This document shows, in pieces, positions 2 through 20,479 of a stretch of DNA of 20,479 bases; within the stretch, counting starts at the first letter, position 1; every line of letters starts with the position of its first letter. The DNA is taken from positions 1 to 20,479 of IMG/VR virus record IMGVR_UViG_3300042914_003582, one strand, 5' to 3'. Below the pieces are notes generated by a model that saw only the letters and a program-made list of their open reading frames with translations, did no database searches and was not told the origin of the DNA. Source of the stretch: a virus. A program made the translations under genes and the position numbers.

Positions 2-1984
2 TCGGAGGTCGACGCACTGCGCCAGCAGATTGCACAGCAGAAGGACTACGAGAAGACGCTCGTCTCCGTGGCCGAGCACTCCAGCAAGCTCAAGCTCGCG
101 CAAATGGCGCAGACCGACTCGCTGCGCGACTCCGTCATCAAGCTGCAGGAGCAAAACGACGCGCTGAACCTCTCCGAGCGCGAGCTGGTGAGCCGCCAGG
201 CGCAGCTCGATCGCACCCGGGCCGACGAGCTCGACTGGCAGGCCGCCATGGAAGGCGGCAACTACCAGCTCGAGGAGCAGGCGCGGCTGCTGCGCCAGCG
301 CGCGGATCTCTCCGAGCAGGGCGTGGTGCTCAAGGAGGCCAAGGCCGCGGCCGACGAGTGGAAGAAGACCACCGACAGCATCAACGACGGCCTCACCGAC
401 GCGCTGATGCGCGCCTTCGAGTCGGGCAAGGGCTTCATGGCCGCCTTCCGCGACACCCTCGTCAACGCCTTCAAGAGCCTGGTGCTGCAGCCCACCATCA
501 AGGCCATCCTGGCGCCGGTGAGCGGGGCGCTGGGCAGCCTGTTCGGGGGCAACGCCATGGCCAGCGCGGGCGCGGCCGGCGGTGGCGGTGGCCTGGGTTC
601 GCTGCTGTCGATGGGCACCAATCTGCTGAGCGGCAGCAGCATCAGCGCCGCGGCCTCCGGCGGCGTCATCCGCCTGGGCGACTTCCTCTCCACCAGCAGC
701 AACAACACGCTGGCCGGCATCGGCGACTTCATCACCGGCAACAGCGGCATGCTGGGCTCGGGCCTGGGCATGCTGGGCAACGGGTTCATGGGCTACGGCA
801 TCAGCCGGGCCCTGAGCGGCGGCTACAGCGCCGGCAGCTGGGTCAACACGGTCGCCGGCATTGCCTCCGCGATCCCCGGCATCGGCCCGATCGCCGGCGT
901 TGTGGGCGCGCTGGTCAACCGCGCCTTCGGCCGGCGCGCCAAAGAGGCGCGCGACTCCGGCATCACGGGCAGCTTCACCGCTGGCGGGGTCGATGCCCAG
1001 GCCTTCCAGGACTGGTTCCAGAAGGGCGGCTGGTTCCGCAGCGACCGCAGCGGCACCGACCTTTCTGCGCTGGGGGCCGAAACCTCCGACGCGCTGCGCG
1101 CCGGCGCCTTCGGTGTGCTCTCGAGCACGCGCGCCTGGGCCTCCGCGCTGCAGCTGCCGGCCGATGCTCTCTCGAGCGTGACCACGCAATTCCGCGTGAA
1201 GCTCACCGGCAACGCGCAGGAGGACCAGGCCGAGCTGTCCAAGCTCTTCGAGCGCTACTCCGACGACCTGGCGGCCACCTACCAGGCGCAGCTGCGCCCC
1301 TTCCAGCGCGCAGGCGAGACGCTCAGCGGCACACTGCAGCGCCTGGCCGGCCTGCAGCTCTTCAGCCAGACCCTCAACGAGTTCGGCGGGGTGTTCAGCC
1401 GGGTGGCCAACCTGTCGGTGGACGCCAAAGAGCAGCTGATCGCCTTTGCGGGCGGCATCGACGCGCTGCTGGGCAAGACGCGCGCCTTTGTGGGCAGCTA
1501 CTACAGCGAAGCCGAGCAGGCCGGCCTGGCCGCGCGCGCCATCCAGGACCAGCTCGGCGCCCTGGGCATCACCGACGACCTGCGCAACCGCGCCGACTTC
1601 CGCGCGCTGGTCGAGTCCACCGATGTCAGCAGCGAGTCCGGACGCCAGCGCCTGGCGCAGCTGCTGGACATCGCCGCGGCTTTCGCGCCGCTGGGCCAGT
1701 ACCTCGAGGCGCAGGGCGGCTCGCTGTCGAGCGCGGCCGGCATGGCCCCGGCCTCGAGCGTGCTGCAGGACATCCTCAGCGGCCCGGCCTCCACCCAGCA
1801 GGCCACCGTCGACGGCCTGGCCGAGCTCACGCAGACCACGGCCGCCGCGGGCGATGCCACCGTCGGAGCGCTCGAGCGGCTGATCGACCGCGTGGGCCAG
1901 CTCGAGACGGCGCTGGTCAGCGCCCTGGACCGCAACGCGCGCACCATCAGCGACGCCGTGGTGATCGAGAGCAGCGGGGCCTGA
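2..1984 (+). CDS. Phage tail tape-measure-like protein, C-terminal part (5' partial)
   Basis: The frame is open to the left edge of the window, so the true start lies upstream; about 660 residues are visible. The first ~120 residues are charged and heptad-like (many E, Q, L, R), consistent with coiled coil. A segment rich in Trp/Lys/Phe follows (DALMRAFESGKGFMAAF), then long Gly/Ala/Ser-rich hydrophobic stretches (GGGGGLGSLLSMG) typical of the membrane-associated part of tape-measure proteins. In that family the protein sets tail length and helps DNA pass the inner membrane. The position just upstream of other tail genes and a tail fibre supports this. No peptidase or lysozyme motif was seen in the visible part. 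The assignment rests on composition and context, not on a catalytic signature. Confidence 0.75.
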   Translation, partial: SEVDALRQQIAQQKDYEKTLVSVAEHSSKLKLAQMAQTDSLRDSVIKLQEQNDALNLSERELVSRQAQLDRTRADELDWQAAMEGGNYQLEEQARLLRQRADLSEQGVVLKEAKAAADEWKKTTDSINDGLTDALMRAFESGKGFMAAFRDTLVNAFKSLVLQPTIKAILAPVSGALGSLFGGNAMASAGAAGGGGGLGSLLSMGTNLLSGSSISAAASGGVIRLGDFLSTSSNNTLAGIGDFITGNSGMLGSGLGMLGNGFMGYGISRALSGGYSAGSWVNTVAGIASAIPGIGPIAGVVGALVNRAFGRRAKEARDSGITGSFTAGGVDAQAFQDWFQKGGWFRSDRSGTDLSALGAETSDALRAGAFGVLSSTRAWASALQLPADALSSVTTQFRVKLTGNAQEDQAELSKLFERYSDDLAATYQAQLRPFQRAGETLSGTLQRLAGLQLFSQTLNEFGGVFSRVANLSVDAKEQLIAFAGGIDALLGKTRAFVGSYYSEAEQAGLAARAIQDQLGALGITDDLRNRADFRALVESTDVSSESGRQRLAQLLDIAAAFAPLGQYLEAQGGSLSSAAGMAPASSVLQDILSGPASTQQATVDGLAELTQTTAAAGDATVGALERLIDRVGQLETALVSALDRNARTISDAVVIESSGA

Positions 1985-7939: not shown

Positions 7940-7943
7940 TTGC
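7903..7943 (+). repeat. Direct repeat GCGTAAC(A/T)TTTGC at the integrase start
   Basis: Two 13-base copies with one mismatch, at 7903-7915 and 7931-7943, are 28 bases apart. The second overlaps the integrase TTG start codon at 7940. A protein bound there could block translation start or transcription of the integrase, or the copies could be recombinase arm sites. The core CGTAAC is the same hexamer that builds the palindromic array near 20.3 kb. Confidence 0.5.
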
Positions 7944-9220
7944 TGTTCCACCCACGCGCTGCCGCGGCTCTTCAGCCCGGCGATCATCTCACGGTCGAGG
8001 GCGCGCCTGGGTTGCGCCTGGTCGCCACCGCGAGCACGCGCACGTGGGTGTACCGGTACCGCTCTCCCCTCGACCAGCGCATGCGCCAGGTGAAGCTCGG
8101 CCGCTGGCCAGCGATGGGCCTGCCGGCTGCCATGGCGGCCTGGCAGAAGGCCGCGGAGGCCCGCCAGGCGGGCGCGGATCTGTCCGTCGAGCGCCGCGCG
8201 AAGCGTGAGCAGGCGCAACAGACGGCCCGGCACGCGGCCTACACCGTGCAGCGCGCGTGCGACGAGTACCTGGCAACCTACGCCGCCAGCGTAACTTCCA
8301 AAACCTACGCTGAGGCCGAGCGCATCTTGCGCGTCGAGCTCCACCCGATCGCGGCGCGCCTGGCGCGCAGCGTCACCAGGGCCGACGCCTTCGACCTGCT
8401 GCAGGGCCTGGCCGACCGGCCGGTGCTCGCCCAGCGCACGCGGCAGCTGCTGGGCGCGGTGTGGGACCGCGCCCTCGATGCCGGCCGGCTGCCGGCCGAC
8501 ACCCCGAACTGGTGGCGCATGGTCCTGCGCGGAAAGCTGTCGAGCCGCGGGCCGCGGGTGGACGGTGAGAATGTGGGCGTGCGCGCCCGCGCGCTCAGCG
8601 AGCCCGAGCTCGCCGCGCTGCTGCCCTGGCTGCCGAACTTCACGCGCGACATCGAGGACGCCCTCACGCTCTACCTGTGGACGTGCTGCCGAGGCGCGGA
8701 AATTGTGGGCATGCAGCGCGAGGAGATCACCGAGGAAGCCGACGGCCTGTGGTGGACCATCCCGCGCGCCCGCCTGAAGATGCGCCGCCACCCGCTGCTG
8801 GGCGACCTGCGCGTCCCGCTCGTGGGCCGCGCTGCGGCGGTGGTCCGCCGGCGCCTGGCGGCCACCGACAGCGCCTGGCTCTTCCCCTCACGCGGCAAGA
8901 CGCCGCACATCGACCAGAAGGCCGTGGGCGTGGCCGTGTGGATGCACCAGGCGCGCTGCACGACCAGGCCGGAGTGGGTGCGCCCGCGGCTGCCGGTGGC
9001 CGACTGGGCGCCGCACGACCTGCGCCGCACCGGCCGCACGCTGCTGGCCGCGCTGGGCTGCCCGCCAGATGTCGCCGAGGCCATCCTCGGCCACCTGCCG
9101 CCGGGCATCCAGGCCGTCTACAACCGGCACCAGTACGACGCCGAGCGGCGCCTGTGGCTCACCCGGCTGGCTGAGCGGCTGGAGCAGCTCGCTTCCCAGG
9201 GCCCGGCGCCAGGTCGCTGA
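7940..9220 (+). CDS. int: Phage tyrosine integrase (P4-like, DUF4102 N-terminus)
   Basis: A 426-residue tyrosine recombinase. The N-terminal part (residues ~6-60, AAALQPGDHLTVEGAPGLRL ... VYRYRSPLDQRMRQVKLG) matches the DUF4102 arm-binding domain. A SAM-like core-binding domain follows near 100-185. The catalytic residues appear in order: R251 in TCCRGAEI, probable K280, H359 and R362 in HDLRRT, H385 in LGH, and nucleophile Y394 in AVYNRH. It would recombine attP with a chromosomal attB. The start is TTG at 7940; an in-frame TAA lies four bases before it, and the next residues already fit the family start, so there is little room for another choice. No good ribosome site is visible, suggesting low expression. 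It is transcribed toward the excisionase and overlaps it by 62 bases at the 3' ends. Confidence 0.92.
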   Translation: MLFHPRAAAALQPGDHLTVEGAPGLRLVATASTRTWVYRYRSPLDQRMRQVKLGRWPAMGLPAAMAAWQKAAEARQAGADLSVERRAKREQAQQTARHAAYTVQRACDEYLATYAASVTSKTYAEAERILRVELHPIAARLARSVTRADAFDLLQGLADRPVLAQRTRQLLGAVWDRALDAGRLPADTPNWWRMVLRGKLSSRGPRVDGENVGVRARALSEPELAALLPWLPNFTRDIEDALTLYLWTCCRGAEIVGMQREEITEEADGLWWTIPRARLKMRRHPLLGDLRVPLVGRAAAVVRRRLAATDSAWLFPSRGKTPHIDQKAVGVAVWMHQARCTTRPEWVRPRLPVADWAPHDLRRTGRTLLAALGCPPDVAEAILGHLPPGIQAVYNRHQYDAERRLWLTRLAERLEQLASQGPAPGR

Positions 9221-13127: not shown

Positions 13128-13763
13128 CTATCCGAAGCTCGGGTTTTCGAAGTCGAAGCTCGGCTCGCGCCGCTCCACGCCCAGGTCGGCCATCACGCCA
13201 TCGAGCAGGCCGTGCAGGCCGGCCAGGGTCGGGCCGTTGTTCCAGATGTCCACGTGCGTCGGGAGGTCGAGCACGTGCTGCTCGCTCGGATGCAGCCGCA
13301 CGCCTGGCGCGCTGTCTCGATGCAGGCGCACCAGGCGGCCACCGAGCCGCCGCAGCCAGCTCGCCTCGTTGGCGAAGCGCACGTCGCTGATGACGATTCG
13401 GTCATGCACCGGTGCCACCATCTCCACGCTGCCAGGGTTCTCGCCGAAGCCCAGCCGCATGTGCAGGTGGCGCACCCACAGGTCGTGATGCAGCGCGCGG
13501 CCCACCTCGGTGCCGAGCGTCTGCATCAGCGCCCTGGCGCTGACGCCCAGGCCAGGGATCGGCCGCTCCTTCAGGAAGCGCTCCGTCATCCAGGCGTGGT
13601 CGATACCAGCTTCCTCGAGGAACTGCAGCGCCATGCTGCGGATGGGGTCGGCGAAGGCCGCCTGCACGAACCCGTACTCGCGCACCAGGTGCTCGGCGGC
13701 CGAGTCCTTGCCCGTGCCGGCCAGGCCGGTGAGGCCCACGAGGGTAATGCGCTCCTCGCTCAC
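13128..13763 (-). CDS. Deoxynucleoside monophosphate kinase
   Basis: A 211-residue protein. The GTG at 13763 overlaps the previous stop as GTGA; longer frames upstream are shadows. Walker A motif GLAGTGKDS at residues 13-21 begins the nucleotide fold (ITLVGLTGLAGTGKD). Further family features include FADPIRSMALQFL, RALMQTLGTEVGR and DRIVISDVRFANEA. The T4 gene 1 family makes dNDPs from dNMPs, feeding phage DNA synthesis, which fits an early operon. The sequence appears intact. A different P-loop kinase specificity cannot be excluded. Confidence 0.85.
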   Translation of the reverse strand: MSEERITLVGLTGLAGTGKDSAAEHLVREYGFVQAAFADPIRSMALQFLEEAGIDHAWMTERFLKERPIPGLGVSARALMQTLGTEVGRALHHDLWVRHLHMRLGFGENPGSVEMVAPVHDRIVISDVRFANEASWLRRLGGRLVRLHRDSAPGVRLHPSEQHVLDLPTHVDIWNNGPTLAGLHGLLDGVMADLGVERREPSFDFENPSFG

Positions 13764-14572
13764 GCCACGATGCTCCCGTTGAGCACCTTGATGTCGAGCT
13801 CGGCCTCGATGGCGCGCCAGACGAACATGAGCGCGTCCTCGAGCACCTTGTGCGGGCGCAGCAGGTCGTACCACATGGTCATCTTTCCGCCGTCGGCGAT
13901 GCGGTAGCGCAGCCGGGCCTCGACGCGGTAGCGGTCTCCGGTCTCGAACACCGCGATGCCCAGCGCAAAGGTCTCGGGCACCAGCAGGCGACCCTTCGCG
14001 GCCGTGCCCTCGATGCTCTCCTCGTAGGTGAGCTGGTTCTGCCCGTTGCTCAGCCGCACGCCGCTGGCGAAGTTCACCTTCTTCTTGGCCTCGAGGCTGC
14101 GGCTGATCTCCAGCATGTCTGCCGCCGGCGGCTCGGCCACGTCGGGCAGGTTGTCCTCGATGAAGCGGGCGAAGTCCTCCTGGCTCATCACCTTGCCGCT
14201 GCTGGCCGTCCAGGTCAGCCACTCGCGGGAAAGCGGGCAGTCGAAGGTGGCGCGGTCGTCGCGCCAGCCGGGCGCGAGGTCTTGGCCGAAGTGGTCGTTG
14301 AGCACCGCGACGAAGCCGGGCTTCGGGGCTTGCGTGCCGTAGATGCGCGTAGCGGCAGTCTTGCGCTCGCCCACGTAGCGCACAAATGAGGCCATGTCGC
14401 GCAGCGCCACCGTTCCCTTCGCGCGGTGCGGGTTCGGGAGGATGTTGTCCAGCCAGTGCACCTGGGCGCCAGCCGGCAGCACCACCATCGGAATGTCGGC
14501 CACATGCTGCAGCTCGGCGAGCTGCATGCCGGCGTCCAGCGCCGCCTGCGTGTCGTTCTTCTGAGCTTCCAT
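13760..14572 (-). CDS. DUF2303 family protein (YfdQ-like)
   Basis: A 270-residue protein. The blocks LNDHFGQDLAPGWRDDRATF, PLSREWLTW, MSQEDFARFIEDNLPDV, NQLTYEESIEGTAAKG, and a beta-rich C-terminal third are the features I associate with DUF2303, known from the E. coli prophage gene yfdQ. Members commonly lie in early operons beside recombination or nucleotide genes and their function is not known. It starts one base after the 111-residue gene, a frequent partner. The fit to the family length (about 270 residues) is good. Confidence 0.85.
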   Translation of the reverse strand: MEAQKNDTQAALDAGMQLAELQHVADIPMVVLPAGAQVHWLDNILPNPHRAKGTVALRDMASFVRYVGERKTAATRIYGTQAPKPGFVAVLNDHFGQDLAPGWRDDRATFDCPLSREWLTWTASSGKVMSQEDFARFIEDNLPDVAEPPAADMLEISRSLEAKKKVNFASGVRLSNGQNQLTYEESIEGTAAKGRLLVPETFALGIAVFETGDRYRVEARLRYRIADGGKMTMWYDLLRPHKVLEDALMFVWRAIEAELDIKVLNGSIVA

Positions 14573-14573
14573 C

Positions 14574-14909
14574 TCAGGCCCCCGCGACGCGCTTGAGTTC
14601 GCCCGTGGCCTTGTCGACCGTGCGCAGGCCCTCGATCTGCATCTGCCGCGGGTCTTCGCGCGTCAGGTTGCCCTCGGGGGTGCTGAACATGATGGTCGAG
14701 CCGCGCTCCTCCTTGGGCAGCTTGACCTTGATGTCGTCGAACACCTCGATCTGCCCGCCCTTGCCGGGCTTGAGCTGCAGCTCCAGCGTGAGCGCGCCGG
14801 AGCGGCCGGTGTCCTGGCACTTGAGCGTGAGCTCGTGCAGCGCCTTGGTGAGGTCTTCGCCCAGCGTGCCGTAGCGCAGCTGGGCCAGGGTGTCGGTGAA
14901 CGGTCTCAT
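14574..14909 (-). CDS. Conserved partner of DUF2303 protein, unknown function (111 aa)
   Basis: A 111-residue protein starting at the ATG at 14909 in an ATGA overlap, with AGGAGG nine bases upstream, the best ribosome site in this operon. The sequence (MRPFTDTLAQLRYGTLGEDL, then TLELQLKPGKGGQIEVFDDI KVKLPKE) is a mixed alpha/beta fold with a Gly/Lys-rich strand turn. It sits immediately upstream of the DUF2303 gene, an arrangement seen in other phages, so the two may act together. No catalytic motif is visible. Confidence 0.75.
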   Translation of the reverse strand: MRPFTDTLAQLRYGTLGEDLTKALHELTLKCQDTGRSGALTLELQLKPGKGGQIEVFDDIKVKLPKEERGSTIMFSTPEGNLTREDPRQMQIEGLRTVDKATGELKRVAGA

Positions 14910-17314: not shown

Positions 17315-17533
17315 ATGAAGGCCGACACCGCAGAGCTGCGCACCGAGTGCCCCCTGGAGGTCGTGGACGTGCTCGACGCCGTCAGCCTGGCGCAGCGCCT
17401 CACGCGCGGCCAGCTGGTGGTGCGGATCCTGACGGACTGGGCAGAGCAGCGACATCGTGAGGCGATCCTGATCGGTCGGCTCTCGCGTGGCAATCCGGCG
17501 CCCCCGGACTTCGACGCGCGAGGTTCCGTGTGA
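17315..17533 (+). CDS. Small phage protein of unknown function (72 aa)
   Basis: A 72-residue protein with GGAGG four bases before the ATG. The sequence (TECPLEVVDVLDAVSLAQRL, then TRGQLVVRILTDWAEQRHRE) looks like a compact helical or ribbon-helix-helix type DNA-binding fold, with a basic, Pro-rich tail. Proteins of similar type occur upstream of phage primases. No family is claimed. Its stop overlaps the next start as GTGA. Confidence 0.7.
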   Translation: MKADTAELRTECPLEVVDVLDAVSLAQRLTRGQLVVRILTDWAEQRHREAILIGRLSRGNPAPPDFDARGSV

Positions 17534-17769
17534 AAAACCGCTCACGCTCAACACGCCCGGCGGTTGCGCTCGACATGAAAGCGCGCTACCTCACCCCGCT
17601 CGGCCGGGTGTGCCGGCTGCTTTCGCTGCGCGCCCCGCGGCCCGGCCTGCCGATGGAGGCCACCTTCTCCTACCTCGACGGCCCCGGTGGCCGCGGCGTG
17701 TCGCTGCCGGGCGATCGGTTCACGCTCACCGAGTCGGTGGCCGCGCGCGTGCTGGTGCGGGTCGGGTGA
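17530..17769 (+). CDS. Small basic phage protein of unknown function (79 aa)
   Basis: A 79-residue protein with a GTG start in a GTGA overlap. It is basic at the start (MKNRSRSTRPAVALDMKARY), then LTPLGRVCRLLSLR and a beta-like C-terminal half (EATFSYLDGPGGRGVSLPGD, FTLTESVAARVLVRVG). An internal ATG at codon 16 (MKARYLTP) is a possible alternative start. No family recognised. It directly precedes the primase and shares an overlapping stop/start with it. Confidence 0.65.
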   Translation: MKNRSRSTRPAVALDMKARYLTPLGRVCRLLSLRAPRPGLPMEATFSYLDGPGGRGVSLPGDRFTLTESVAARVLVRVG

Positions 17770-18734
17770 TGACGGAGCAGGACGTCGTCGGGCAGATGCT
17801 GGCCGCAGGCCTGGACATGCCGCCGCAGCCGCTGGACCTGAGCGGCAAGGTGCGGCGGTTTGGGCCGAAGAAGGCGCACTGGTACCGCCTGCGCGAGATG
17901 CGCACCGACGGCGGCACGCATGTGGTCGTGGGCAGTTTCGGAAACTGGCGCGGCCAGGAGCGGCACCGCATCGACATCGACTGGCAGGGCATCGGCGAGC
18001 AGGAGCGCCAGGCGCTGCAGGCCCGCCGTGAGGCCCAGGCGCAGGCCGATGCCCGAGCTCGAGCGGAGGCTGCCGCACAGGCCGCCATGAATGCGGCCGA
18101 GCTCTGGGCCAGCGCCTCGCGCACGGGCGAGAGCCCCTACCTGCAGCGCAAGGCCGTGCAGGCCGAGGCGTGCCGCTACCTGCGCGACGGCTCTATCGTG
18201 GTGCCTCTGCTGCGCTACGACCAGCCGCGCGAGACAGCGCTCAAGGCCTTGCAGGTCATCAGGCCCGACGGCTCCAAGCGCTTCACCCGCGGCTTCGAGA
18301 AGCCAGGCTGCTGCCTGCGCCTGGGCCACGTGGTGGTGGGCGAGCCCATCCTCGTGTGCGAGGGCTACGCCACGGGCCTGACGCTGCGCATGGCCGTGCA
18401 GCGCCGGCTGCCGGTGGTGGTGGCGCTGGACGCCGGCAACCTCCTGCCGGTGCTCGAGCTGCTGCGCGCCCTGCATGGCCAGAGCCGACTGCTGGTGTGC
18501 GCCGATGACGACTGGCGCACCGCGGGCAACCCCGGCCGCGAGAAGGCTCACAAGGCCTCGCGCGCGGTCGAGCGCTGCGCCTACACCTGGCCGATCTTCC
18601 GGCCGGGCAACCGCGGCCCGAAGGACACGGACTTCAACGACCTCCACCAGCGCGAGGGCCTCAACGTGGTGCGCCGCCAGCTGCGGCACGTGCTGCCCAT
18701 GCTCGATTCGGAAATCTTGAACGATGCCGCCTGA
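17769..18734 (+). CDS. Toprim-domain DNA primase-like protein
   Basis: A 321-residue protein. ATG at 17769 overlaps the previous stop by one base; a GTG three bases earlier is also possible. The N-terminal ~80 residues (VRRFGPKKAHWYRLREM, SFGNWRGQERHRID) correspond to the primase-associated region seen before Toprim in P4-like phage primases, followed by an Ala/Glu/Arg helix (76-115). The Toprim domain carries ILVCEGYATG (194-203, acidic E198) and LLVCADDDWR (241-250, acidic D246-D248), with DTDFNDLH (286-293) after it. The usual N-terminal zinc finger is not evident. Together with the helicase it should start phage DNA replication. Confidence 0.87.
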   Translation: MTEQDVVGQMLAAGLDMPPQPLDLSGKVRRFGPKKAHWYRLREMRTDGGTHVVVGSFGNWRGQERHRIDIDWQGIGEQERQALQARREAQAQADARARAEAAAQAAMNAAELWASASRTGESPYLQRKAVQAEACRYLRDGSIVVPLLRYDQPRETALKALQVIRPDGSKRFTRGFEKPGCCLRLGHVVVGEPILVCEGYATGLTLRMAVQRRLPVVVALDAGNLLPVLELLRALHGQSRLLVCADDDWRTAGNPGREKAHKASRAVERCAYTWPIFRPGNRGPKDTDFNDLHQREGLNVVRRQLRHVLPMLDSEILNDAA

Positions 18735-20181
18735 CAACGTCATTCGCATGGCCGACGACTCCACCCCCGATCCTGGCGGCGCCTCCGCGCCCACCAAGGG
18801 GAAGGGGACGGCACCCAAGCGGCGCAGCAAGTCGCCCATCAACCTGGGCAACTACACGCGGCTCATGGAGTCCTTCGCGCTCATCTACGGGACAAAGACC
18901 TGCTGGGACGAAGAGACGCACCGCATCGTGCCGATCGACGCGCTGCGCCTGGCCATGACGAGCGACTCCGTCAAGGCCTGGCTGGGCTCGCCCAACCGCC
19001 GCATGGTGATGCCGGAACAGCTGATGTTCGAGCCTGGCGCCACACTGGACCCGGGCTGCGTGCAGCTCTTCGGTGGCCTCGAGCTGCAGCCGGTGGCGTG
19101 CAGCACCGAGGACGTGCAGCCGATGCTGGACCTGCTGCACCACCTGTGCCGGGACAGCGCCGACAAGCCCGAGGAGGTGCGCGCCGTCATGCATTGGGTG
19201 CTGCGCTGGCAGGCGCTGCCGCTGCAGCGCATCGGCACGAAGATGCAGACGGCCATCGTCATGCACGGGCCGCAGGGCACCGGCAAGAACCTCTACTGGG
19301 ACGTCTGGCGCGACCTGTACGGTCGCTACGGCATCACGGTCGGCCAGGTCGAGCTCGAGGACAAGTTCAACGGCTGGCTGAGCCAGAAGCTGGCCATCAT
19401 CGGCGACGAGGTCGTCTCGCGCCAGGAGATGTACCACAACAAGAACCGCCTCAAGCTCATCGTCACGCAGCAGGCGAAGTTCCCGATCCGCGAGATCCAG
19501 CAGGCCACCCGGTGGGAGAGCAATCACGCCAACGTGGTGTTTCTGTCCAATGAGAGCCAGCCTCTGGCCCTCGAGGAGCGCGACAGGCGCTACATGGTGG
19601 TCTACACCCCACTGGCGGCCGATGCGGCGCTCTACGAGCGCGTCAAGGCCTTCCTGGAGGCCGGCGGTGCAGCCAGGTGGCTCCACTTCCTGCAGCACTA
19701 CCCGCTGGGCGACTTCGACCGCCACGCCAAGCCCATCCTCACGCGCGCCAAGATCGACCTAATCCAGTCGGGCTGGCTGCCGGCGCAGCGCTTCGCGCAC
19801 GAGTGGATGAGCGGTTTCCTGCCCCTTCCGGTTCGTGTGTGCTCGGCCGAGCAGCTGTACCGGGCCTTCGGTCGATGGTGCACGGTCTACGGCGAGAGGT
19901 TCCCACCCTCCCAGGGGAAGTTCACGGCCGAGGTGCAGCGCTGGCTCCGCGAGCATGCAGGAGTCGATGCCGACGGGCCGGCGATGACCTACAAGGTCGT
20001 GCAGCTCGAGGACGTCTCAGGCCGGCGCGCGGTGCGCTGCTGGCTGCCGCGCGGCACCGGGCGCACGGACGCCTACCCCACCGAGGGTGCATGGGCCGCA
20101 GAAAGCGTGCGGGCCTTCGAGGCCGTGCTGCGCGACTACCTGCGCGACATCTCGGGCGCCGACCTGGAGGCCCAGACGTGA
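18724..20181 (+). CDS. SF3-type replication helicase, DUF5906 (D5-like)
   Basis: A 485-residue protein that starts inside the primase gene (11-base overlap). After a low-complexity basic linker (residues ~10-38), it has an ATPase core: Walker A GPQGTGKN at 182-189, Walker B LAIIGDE at 223-229, motif C VVFLSNE at 271-277 and the basic RDRRY at 286-290 as a possible arginine finger. This is the DUF5906/D5-like helicase that loads onto the origin with the primase. The C-terminal ~150 residues are variable and could read the origin or act as a winged helix. The unusual palindromic array lies just beyond its stop. Confidence 0.9.
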   Translation: MPPDNVIRMADDSTPDPGGASAPTKGKGTAPKRRSKSPINLGNYTRLMESFALIYGTKTCWDEETHRIVPIDALRLAMTSDSVKAWLGSPNRRMVMPEQLMFEPGATLDPGCVQLFGGLELQPVACSTEDVQPMLDLLHHLCRDSADKPEEVRAVMHWVLRWQALPLQRIGTKMQTAIVMHGPQGTGKNLYWDVWRDLYGRYGITVGQVELEDKFNGWLSQKLAIIGDEVVSRQEMYHNKNRLKLIVTQQAKFPIREIQQATRWESNHANVVFLSNESQPLALEERDRRYMVVYTPLAADAALYERVKAFLEAGGAARWLHFLQHYPLGDFDRHAKPILTRAKIDLIQSGWLPAQRFAHEWMSGFLPLPVRVCSAEQLYRAFGRWCTVYGERFPPSQGKFTAEVQRWLREHAGVDADGPAMTYKVVQLEDVSGRRAVRCWLPRGTGRTDAYPTEGAWAAESVRAFEAVLRDYLRDISGADLEAQT

Positions 20182-20186
20182 GCGGC

Positions 20187-20396
20187 TTGTTACGCCTGCG
20201 CCGGTTTGTTACGCCGCCTGTTTCGGCTGGAACCCGCGCCGTTACGTGTGTTTCGCCTGTTACGGGGGCTCGCGCGTATGCACACATGCGTGCGCGTGCA
20301 CGTGCATACGCGACCCGGCGTAACAGCGAAACACACGTAACCACGCGGGTTTGCGGCGTAACACGTGCCGTAACCGCACGCCGCCAGGCGTAACAG
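20187..20396. repeat. Large imperfect palindrome of GTTACG/CGTAAC units
   Basis: About 210 noncoding bases. Left arm GTTACG at 20189, 20208, 20241 and 20259, plus variant GTTTCG at 20220 and 20250. Right arm CGTAAC at 20319, 20336, 20357, 20369 and 20389, plus CGAAAC at 20327. The sites mirror one another around position ~20291 to within about one base. The inner arms CGCGTATGCAC (20273-20283) and GTGCATACGCG (20302-20312) are perfect complements; GTTACGTGTGTTTCGC (20241-20256) is mirrored perfectly at 20326-20341. By hand alignment about three quarters of the ~97 arm positions match. It lies directly after the helicase, so a replication origin or a regulatory array is possible. Confidence 0.9.
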
Positions 20397-20400
20397 GCAC

Positions 20401-20411: not shown

Positions 20412-20479
20412 GTGGAGCAGCTTGGAAGAGACGAAGAGGGAAGCGCTGAGAAAAAAAAGGGGGGGGGTCTTCGGGAAGA
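20412..20479 (+). CDS. Start of an unknown gene with an A8G9 tract (3' partial)
   Basis: A GTG start after an exceptionally good ribosome site. The visible protein begins VEQLGRDEEGSAEKKKGGGL and then RE. The eight A (20451-20458) and nine G (20459-20467) encode KKKGGG in the zero frame. All three frames stay open to the window edge, so the correct one cannot be told. A AAA AAG at 20453-20459 is in the right phase for -1 frameshifting. The product is unknown; by position it may belong to replication or late regulation. Confidence 0.55.
   Translation, partial: MEQLGRDEEGSAEKKKGGGLRE

Follow-up and report, generated by a model that had tools for sequence, protein, structure and literature searches.

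The mirrored array and the genes around it

The window analysed here is the whole of a linear IMG/VR fragment of 20,479 bp (IMGVR_UViG_3300042914_003582), which encodes tape-measure, tail-fibre, endolysin, integrase, HNH, dNMP-kinase and DUF2303 proteins, the gene content of a temperate phage. A temperate phage is also suggested by a tyrosine-type integrase ORF (phrog_1) at 7940-9220. Genes of the DUF2303/YfdQ type are annotated in pAN and H4907 as well, two relatives that carry the array described below. Towards the right end of the window, a Toprim primase ORF is followed by the gene of its partner, a DUF5906 helicase; in many relatives the two are fused into a single ORF of 830-930 aa. The first site of the array lies 7 nt past the helicase stop, in agreement with an earlier note on this DNA, which had placed the array immediately after primase and SF3 helicase genes. 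The features are as follows.

13760-14572, minus strand: DUF2303 gene (phrog_210), by protein family match
14574-14909, minus strand: phrog_204 gene, by protein family match
17487..18734, plus strand: Toprim_3 primase ORF, true start uncertain (PF13362, E 3.8e-10; phrog_2249 DNA primase)
18724..20181, plus strand: DUF5906 / SF3-D5-type helicase gene, 485 aa (PF19263, E 4.9e-16)
20189..20264, plus strand: left arm, six sites (GTTACG at 20189, 20208, 20241 and 20259; GTTTCG at 20220 and 20250)
20226..20240, plus strand: left core box, between sites 3 and 4, GCTGGAACCCGCGCC (arm alignment)
20271..20312, no strand: perfect alternating purine-pyrimidine tract of 42 nt at the array centre, Z-DNA-prone, proposed opening element (run scan)
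20319..20394, minus strand: right arm, six inverted sites (CGTAAC at 20319, 20336, 20357, 20369 and 20389; CGAAAC at 20327)
20342..20356, minus strand: right core box, mirroring the left one, CGCGGGTTT... (arm alignment)
20412..20479, plus strand: next gene, cut by the record end and outside the candidate origin, with a probable GTG start behind AGGAGGTGA (from the sequence)

The array consists of 12 sites at 20189-20394, nine GTTACG and three GTTTCG, of which six point forward and face six inverted copies. The earlier note had counted eleven to twelve units, nine of them exact, in two mirrored arms; its coordinates are correct, and the number is exactly 6+6. Read from the outside in, the spacings are 19/12/21/9/9 in the left arm and 20/12/21/9/8 in the right arm, and the arms are therefore mirrored within 1 bp, as expected from its remark that spacings are kept on both sides. 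The window contains 14 copies of the hexamer GTTACG where 2.2 would be expected, and a count of 14 was reached in 0 of 100 shuffles. When the segment 20183-20398 was compared with its own reverse complement it scored 148, as against 28.7 +/- 6.6 for 500 dinucleotide shuffles (maximum 58; z=18), which bears out the view that a chance origin is unlikely. A separate self-comparison recovered 20185-20398 as a minus-strand self match with 75% identity (E 1.5e-29).

The centre between the arms measures 54 bp and is about 63% GC. Most of it is occupied by the perfect purine-pyrimidine alternation of 42 nt, and no other alternation in the window exceeds 13 nt. The facing halves that had been noticed at the centre do form an inner half-palindrome, which is part of this longer alternation that the earlier note had missed. 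The centre of the window's array shows neither AT-richness nor unusual instability, its nearest-neighbour energy resembling that of the flanks.

The window ends 85 bp past the array, within the next gene; short ORFs with similar starts come after the array in relatives. Close to the record end, at 20450-20468, a run of 8-9 A is followed by 9 G, and these homopolymers may reflect a sequencing or assembly error close to where the contig ends.

The AlphaFold model of the helicase (pLDDT 75.9) ends in a C-terminal domain with a helix-helix-strand-strand-helix (H-H-E-E-H) order. Its fold matches include the NrS-1 helicase (6k9c; VIA Z 22.0), the SaPI5 primase-helicase (7ola; Z 15.2), PriRep1 with dsDNA (7pds; Z 12.3) and D5/E5 entries, one of them a head-to-head double hexamer. 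We propose that the helicase is an origin-binding initiator carrying a winged-helix-like C-terminal domain at approximately aa 341-475.

Conservation and exchange of the sites among relatives

Helicase searches yielded 28 viral and 6 genomic loci, and subsequently 80 aligned viral loci from a collection in which 502 relatives were confirmed. A mirrored array was found 3' of the helicase stop in almost every locus read, starting within tens of bases of it, in relatives ranging from 81% to about 40% identity. Arrays were scored by exact hexamers against 1,484 control windows from the same loci, scoring with one mismatch being too permissive in GC-rich DNA. On this scale 71 of the 79 non-redundant loci lie above the 99th percentile of the controls, and 49 of them above the control maximum; the other eight fail the 99th-percentile test. 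The class has a stereotyped spacing of 8/9, 11/12 and 21 bp and a median of 6+6 sites, with a core box of the AACCCGCG or CTAAGTnnTTGT type between sites 3 and 4 in the arm alignment. Distant annotated phages carry arrays of wholly different words at the same place (Stenotrophomonas S1, Pseudomonas Turba, pAN, KT1, Halomonas H4907 and Moraxella Mcat4), and when these six complete temperate phages were scanned genome-wide, the best mirrored match was the array in 6/6, in pAN as a tie with one other place. The array is widespread in temperate phages, present at the same location in scores of relatives and with its spelling changed in many of them. Extra sites of flipped orientation outside both arms, giving a three-part pattern, were observed in Turba, pAN, KT1, Mcat4 and one further locus (L039 to L042 and L141).

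The gene downstream of the array varies (small unknown protein, antitermination protein, holin or terminase small subunit), whereas the upstream helicase gene is constant. Among DUF5906 loci sampled from Pseudomonadota genomes only 19/58 pass the exact-hexamer test, and the link between array and helicase therefore belongs to a phage clade, or part of the Pfam family, and not to the whole of it. The earlier note had named, as a refutation, related phages that lack the array and yet replicate normally. The comparison did not refute its reading: the array is retained in close relatives; in four lytic relatives with a helicase homologue (YuA, KpV79, VP5 and AXL3) there is no array directly 3' of the gene, which is followed by almost no gap. 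A turn in GC skew, which it had recommended looking for, proved uninformative: in the window and the six complete phages the skew is flat or tracks gene orientation, and it does not turn consistently where the array lies. No origin is marked at this position in any of the annotated phage records consulted, and no DNA polymerase is listed in the annotated temperate relatives.

The hexamer differs from phage to phage and is changed across both arms, to words such as GTTACG, GTTGCG, TGTCCCG, TCTCCCG, CTTACG, TGTGCG, ACCACG, TGTGTTGGG, GTCTGA and GGTTAG. Within a phage, the left and right arms are 91.5% identical at the sites, 73% in the core box and 60% in the other spacers; between phages the corresponding values are 0.778 (78%), 55% and 50%. 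The arms agree at the sites more within than between phages, indicating that the hexamer is replaced in concert in both arms. We compared site distances with protein distances at 55 loci. Once the ATPase core is held fixed, sites and winged helix diverge together (partial r 0.29, p 0.004), a modest correlation for which permutation corrects shared ancestry incompletely; at fixed winged helix, the value for the ATPase core is -0.04 (p 0.71). One pair of loci (L118/L119) has cores that are 91% identical and winged helices that are 64% identical, and its sites read TTACG and CCACG. These data suggest, with modest strength, that hexamer identity follows the predicted C-terminal winged-helix domain of the helicase and not its ATPase core.

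The alternating centre is likewise conserved. The longest alternation in relatives has a median of 19 nt, against 8 in controls, and exceeds the control 99th percentile (14) in 65 of 79 loci. Its length is independent of GC content (correlation -0.01), with a median of 18 in the 15 loci below 50% GC. The steps are 43% CG/GC, 47% CA/TG/AC/GT and 10% TA/AT, a composition expected for Z-prone DNA, the Z-propensity of such steps being textbook knowledge. In several AT-richer relatives (L093, L096, L101 and L104) an AT-rich stretch is added at the centre. A group of DUF5906 proteins of about 765 aa (L152, L154, L156-L158, L160-L163 and L165) has alternating purine-pyrimidine runs 18-23 long 3' of the gene and no exact mirrored hexamer there; the alternating tract may be conserved more widely than the site array.

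A candidate replication origin

We consider that the array is a phage DNA replication origin of the PICI/P4-like kind, bound by the adjacent DUF5906/SF3 helicase, and we give this reading a probability of roughly 0.86. It is based on the anatomy of the array, its conservation, the concerted swapping of its sites, its association with the helicase gene and the winged helix, and the plan it shares with the tested PICI ori and with P4 crr. A replication origin with iteron-like sites was one of four functions guessed at in the earlier note, and it is now strongly favoured. An iteron plasmid origin with direct iterons and an initiator of the RepA/RepE/TrfA type was rejected, as the sites are mirrored and the neighbouring initiator is an SF3/D5-type helicase.

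If the array is an origin, the C-terminal winged-helix domain of the helicase would recognize the hexameric sites, and the six inward-pointing sites of each arm could seat one helicase hexamer each, the two standing head to head. Distortion or opening of the alternating purine-pyrimidine centre would follow, either by a B-to-Z transition or by melting, and the helicase hexamers would pass onto single strands, such that bidirectional theta replication could begin, presumably primed by the neighbouring Toprim primase and extended by a host polymerase.

The earlier note had also considered an RNA hairpin, a partition site and an operator of the next gene, all of which are disfavoured by the repeats within each arm, by arm agreement that is much higher at sites than in spacers, and by the constancy of the upstream gene beside a changing downstream one. 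It is improbable that the array functions through its fold, be it a stem-loop, a cruciform or a hairpin formed by the rightward RNA, with its sequence serving pairing alone. Its predicted fold is very stable (z -9.4 as DNA, -8.6 as RNA), for pRN1 a stem-loop of 100 bp located 3' of the replication gene is both necessary and sufficient in cis, one is predicted 3' of the replication gene of BIP-1 as well (PMC4234260), and even the spacers agree slightly better between arms within a phage than between phages (0.60 versus 0.50). However, six copies of a hexamer inside each arm are superfluous for pairing, the arms agree at only 60% in spacers as against 91.5% at sites, the left and right core boxes are unlike in two loci (L004 and L009), and site identity follows the winged-helix domain; a scan against Rfam gave no family at gathering score, with chance matches to miRNA families below it. 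Any such palindrome folds stably, so that structure could still serve as an aid.

It is more improbable still that the array is a regulatory element to which the helicase or a phage repressor would bind, either as an operator for the downstream gene or so that the primase-helicase operon regulates itself. Hexamer repeats would fit a regulator, and the array is intergenic and precedes a gene whose Shine-Dalgarno sequence is strong; an operator role could moreover coexist with that of an origin. Against it, the downstream gene varies between phages whereas the upstream helicase is constant, and two arms of six mirrored sites each, around a conserved centre, exceed the needs of an operator. The least credible of these readings, to which we attach very little weight, is that of a packaging (cos/pac), attachment or partition site. 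Terminase genes are frequently found a few kb downstream of the array, and partition sites can be arrays of inverted repeats. However, in pAN the array is separated by about 2.2 kb from the terminase, where the record ends fall, and by about 16 kb from the integrase; in Turba and H4907 the stretch between array and terminase measures 2.5-3 kb and includes lysis genes; and no ParA/ParB-like match was seen among the proteins scanned.

We also considered, as a tentative and rather doubtful extension of the origin reading, that the array represents an undescribed class of origin, in which, between two arms of six sites, a Z-DNA-forming tract would stand in for the AT-rich unwinding element, and the winged helix and the twelve sites would co-change their specificity, giving a recognition code and incompatibility groups. 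A literature search, which covered few subscription journals, returned no paper on these phage origins or on such a Z-DNA origin.

As a candidate origin, the array ties DUF5906, a family of 'unknown function', to a likely role in origin binding, and offers a simple rule for locating such origins, namely to search 3' of the helicase gene. The dozens of matched pairs of helicase and sites with swapped specificity constitute a testbed for a winged-helix recognition code and for the link between satellite and phage replicons. The conserved Z-prone centre raises the concrete question of how origins open in GC-rich phages.

Comparison with known origins

The plasmid pRN1 uses as its origin a stem-loop located 3' of its replication gene, and the same has been predicted for Bordetella phage BIP-1; as in our array, an inverted-repeat element lies 3' of a primase-helicase-winged-helix gene and is proposed to be a protein-recognized origin (PMC4234260). 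The pRN1 element differs in that it is described as a stem-loop without iterons and is associated with an AEP-type primase and not a Toprim one. A pRN1-type origin with sequence-independent pairing of the stem was rejected for the array, in which sites are mirrored at 0.915 and spacers at 0.60. In the related Bordetella phage BPP-1 (L126, approximately 610-720, minus strand), a mirrored TTTGCCTCG surrounds an alternating centre, CATACGTGTACATG; this element lies 3' of the gene for an AEP-type primase-helicase, at a distance of about 0.5 kb. The plan is the same as that of the array, with another class of primase, a small ORF between gene and element, and fewer repeats. In SCCmec, the gene of the D5-type helicase Cch2 is followed directly by repeats, which the isolated C-terminal domain of this protein binds (PMC7581432); unlike the array, these are just three 5-nt iterons, and the system is known for binding rather than for replication in vivo.

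In phage P4, crr is annotated as required in cis for replication and lies directly 3' of alpha, with type 1 repeats in both orientations. Like the array, it adjoins the 3' end of a primase-helicase gene and has short repeats in two orientations. In contrast to the array, P4 divides the function between crr, where a direct repeat of 120 bp is present twice, and an ori lying about 4.5 kb from it; motif and arrangement are not alike. We detected no second array in the incomplete 20.5-kb fragment and no clear second peak in the six complete relatives, in a search that degenerate sites could escape.

Close parallels come from the PICIs, where the origin lies immediately 3' of rep and two sets of iterons surround an AT-rich region in all PICIs shown; for EcCICFT073, a cloned rep-ori replicates in E. 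coli, and deletion of ori lowers replication (PMC6092414). When we read the corresponding CFT073 intergenic region, we found that TGTCTACC/GGTAGACA sites in inverted arrangement come immediately after the 3' end of the primase-helicase gene (rep). The ori of EcCICFT073, SaPIbov1 and SaPI5 thus resembles the array in its position directly 3' of the initiator helicase gene, and in its two sets of short iterons flanking a centre, which are inverted in EcCICFT073 by our reading. It also resembles it in iterons that vary by element and in an initiator of SF3/D5 fold with a C-terminal DNA-binding domain (PMC6092414, PMC7581432), a likeness that rests on fold matches for the helicase studied here. 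It differs in that the centre of the array is GC-rich with alternating purines and pyrimidines whereas that of PICIs is AT-rich, in the regularity of the array's arms, each with six sites and a core gap of 21 bp, and in the setting of the array, which is not a satellite but a temperate phage that carries genes for tail, lysis and integrase. We keep the array apart from PICI origins because it has neither the AT-rich centre nor the satellite context. The array, which the earlier note had put forward as a candidate for an undescribed element, is not wholly new in kind, the plan being shared by PICI origins and P4 crr; most likely, the element is a replication origin in the manner of those of PICIs and P4.
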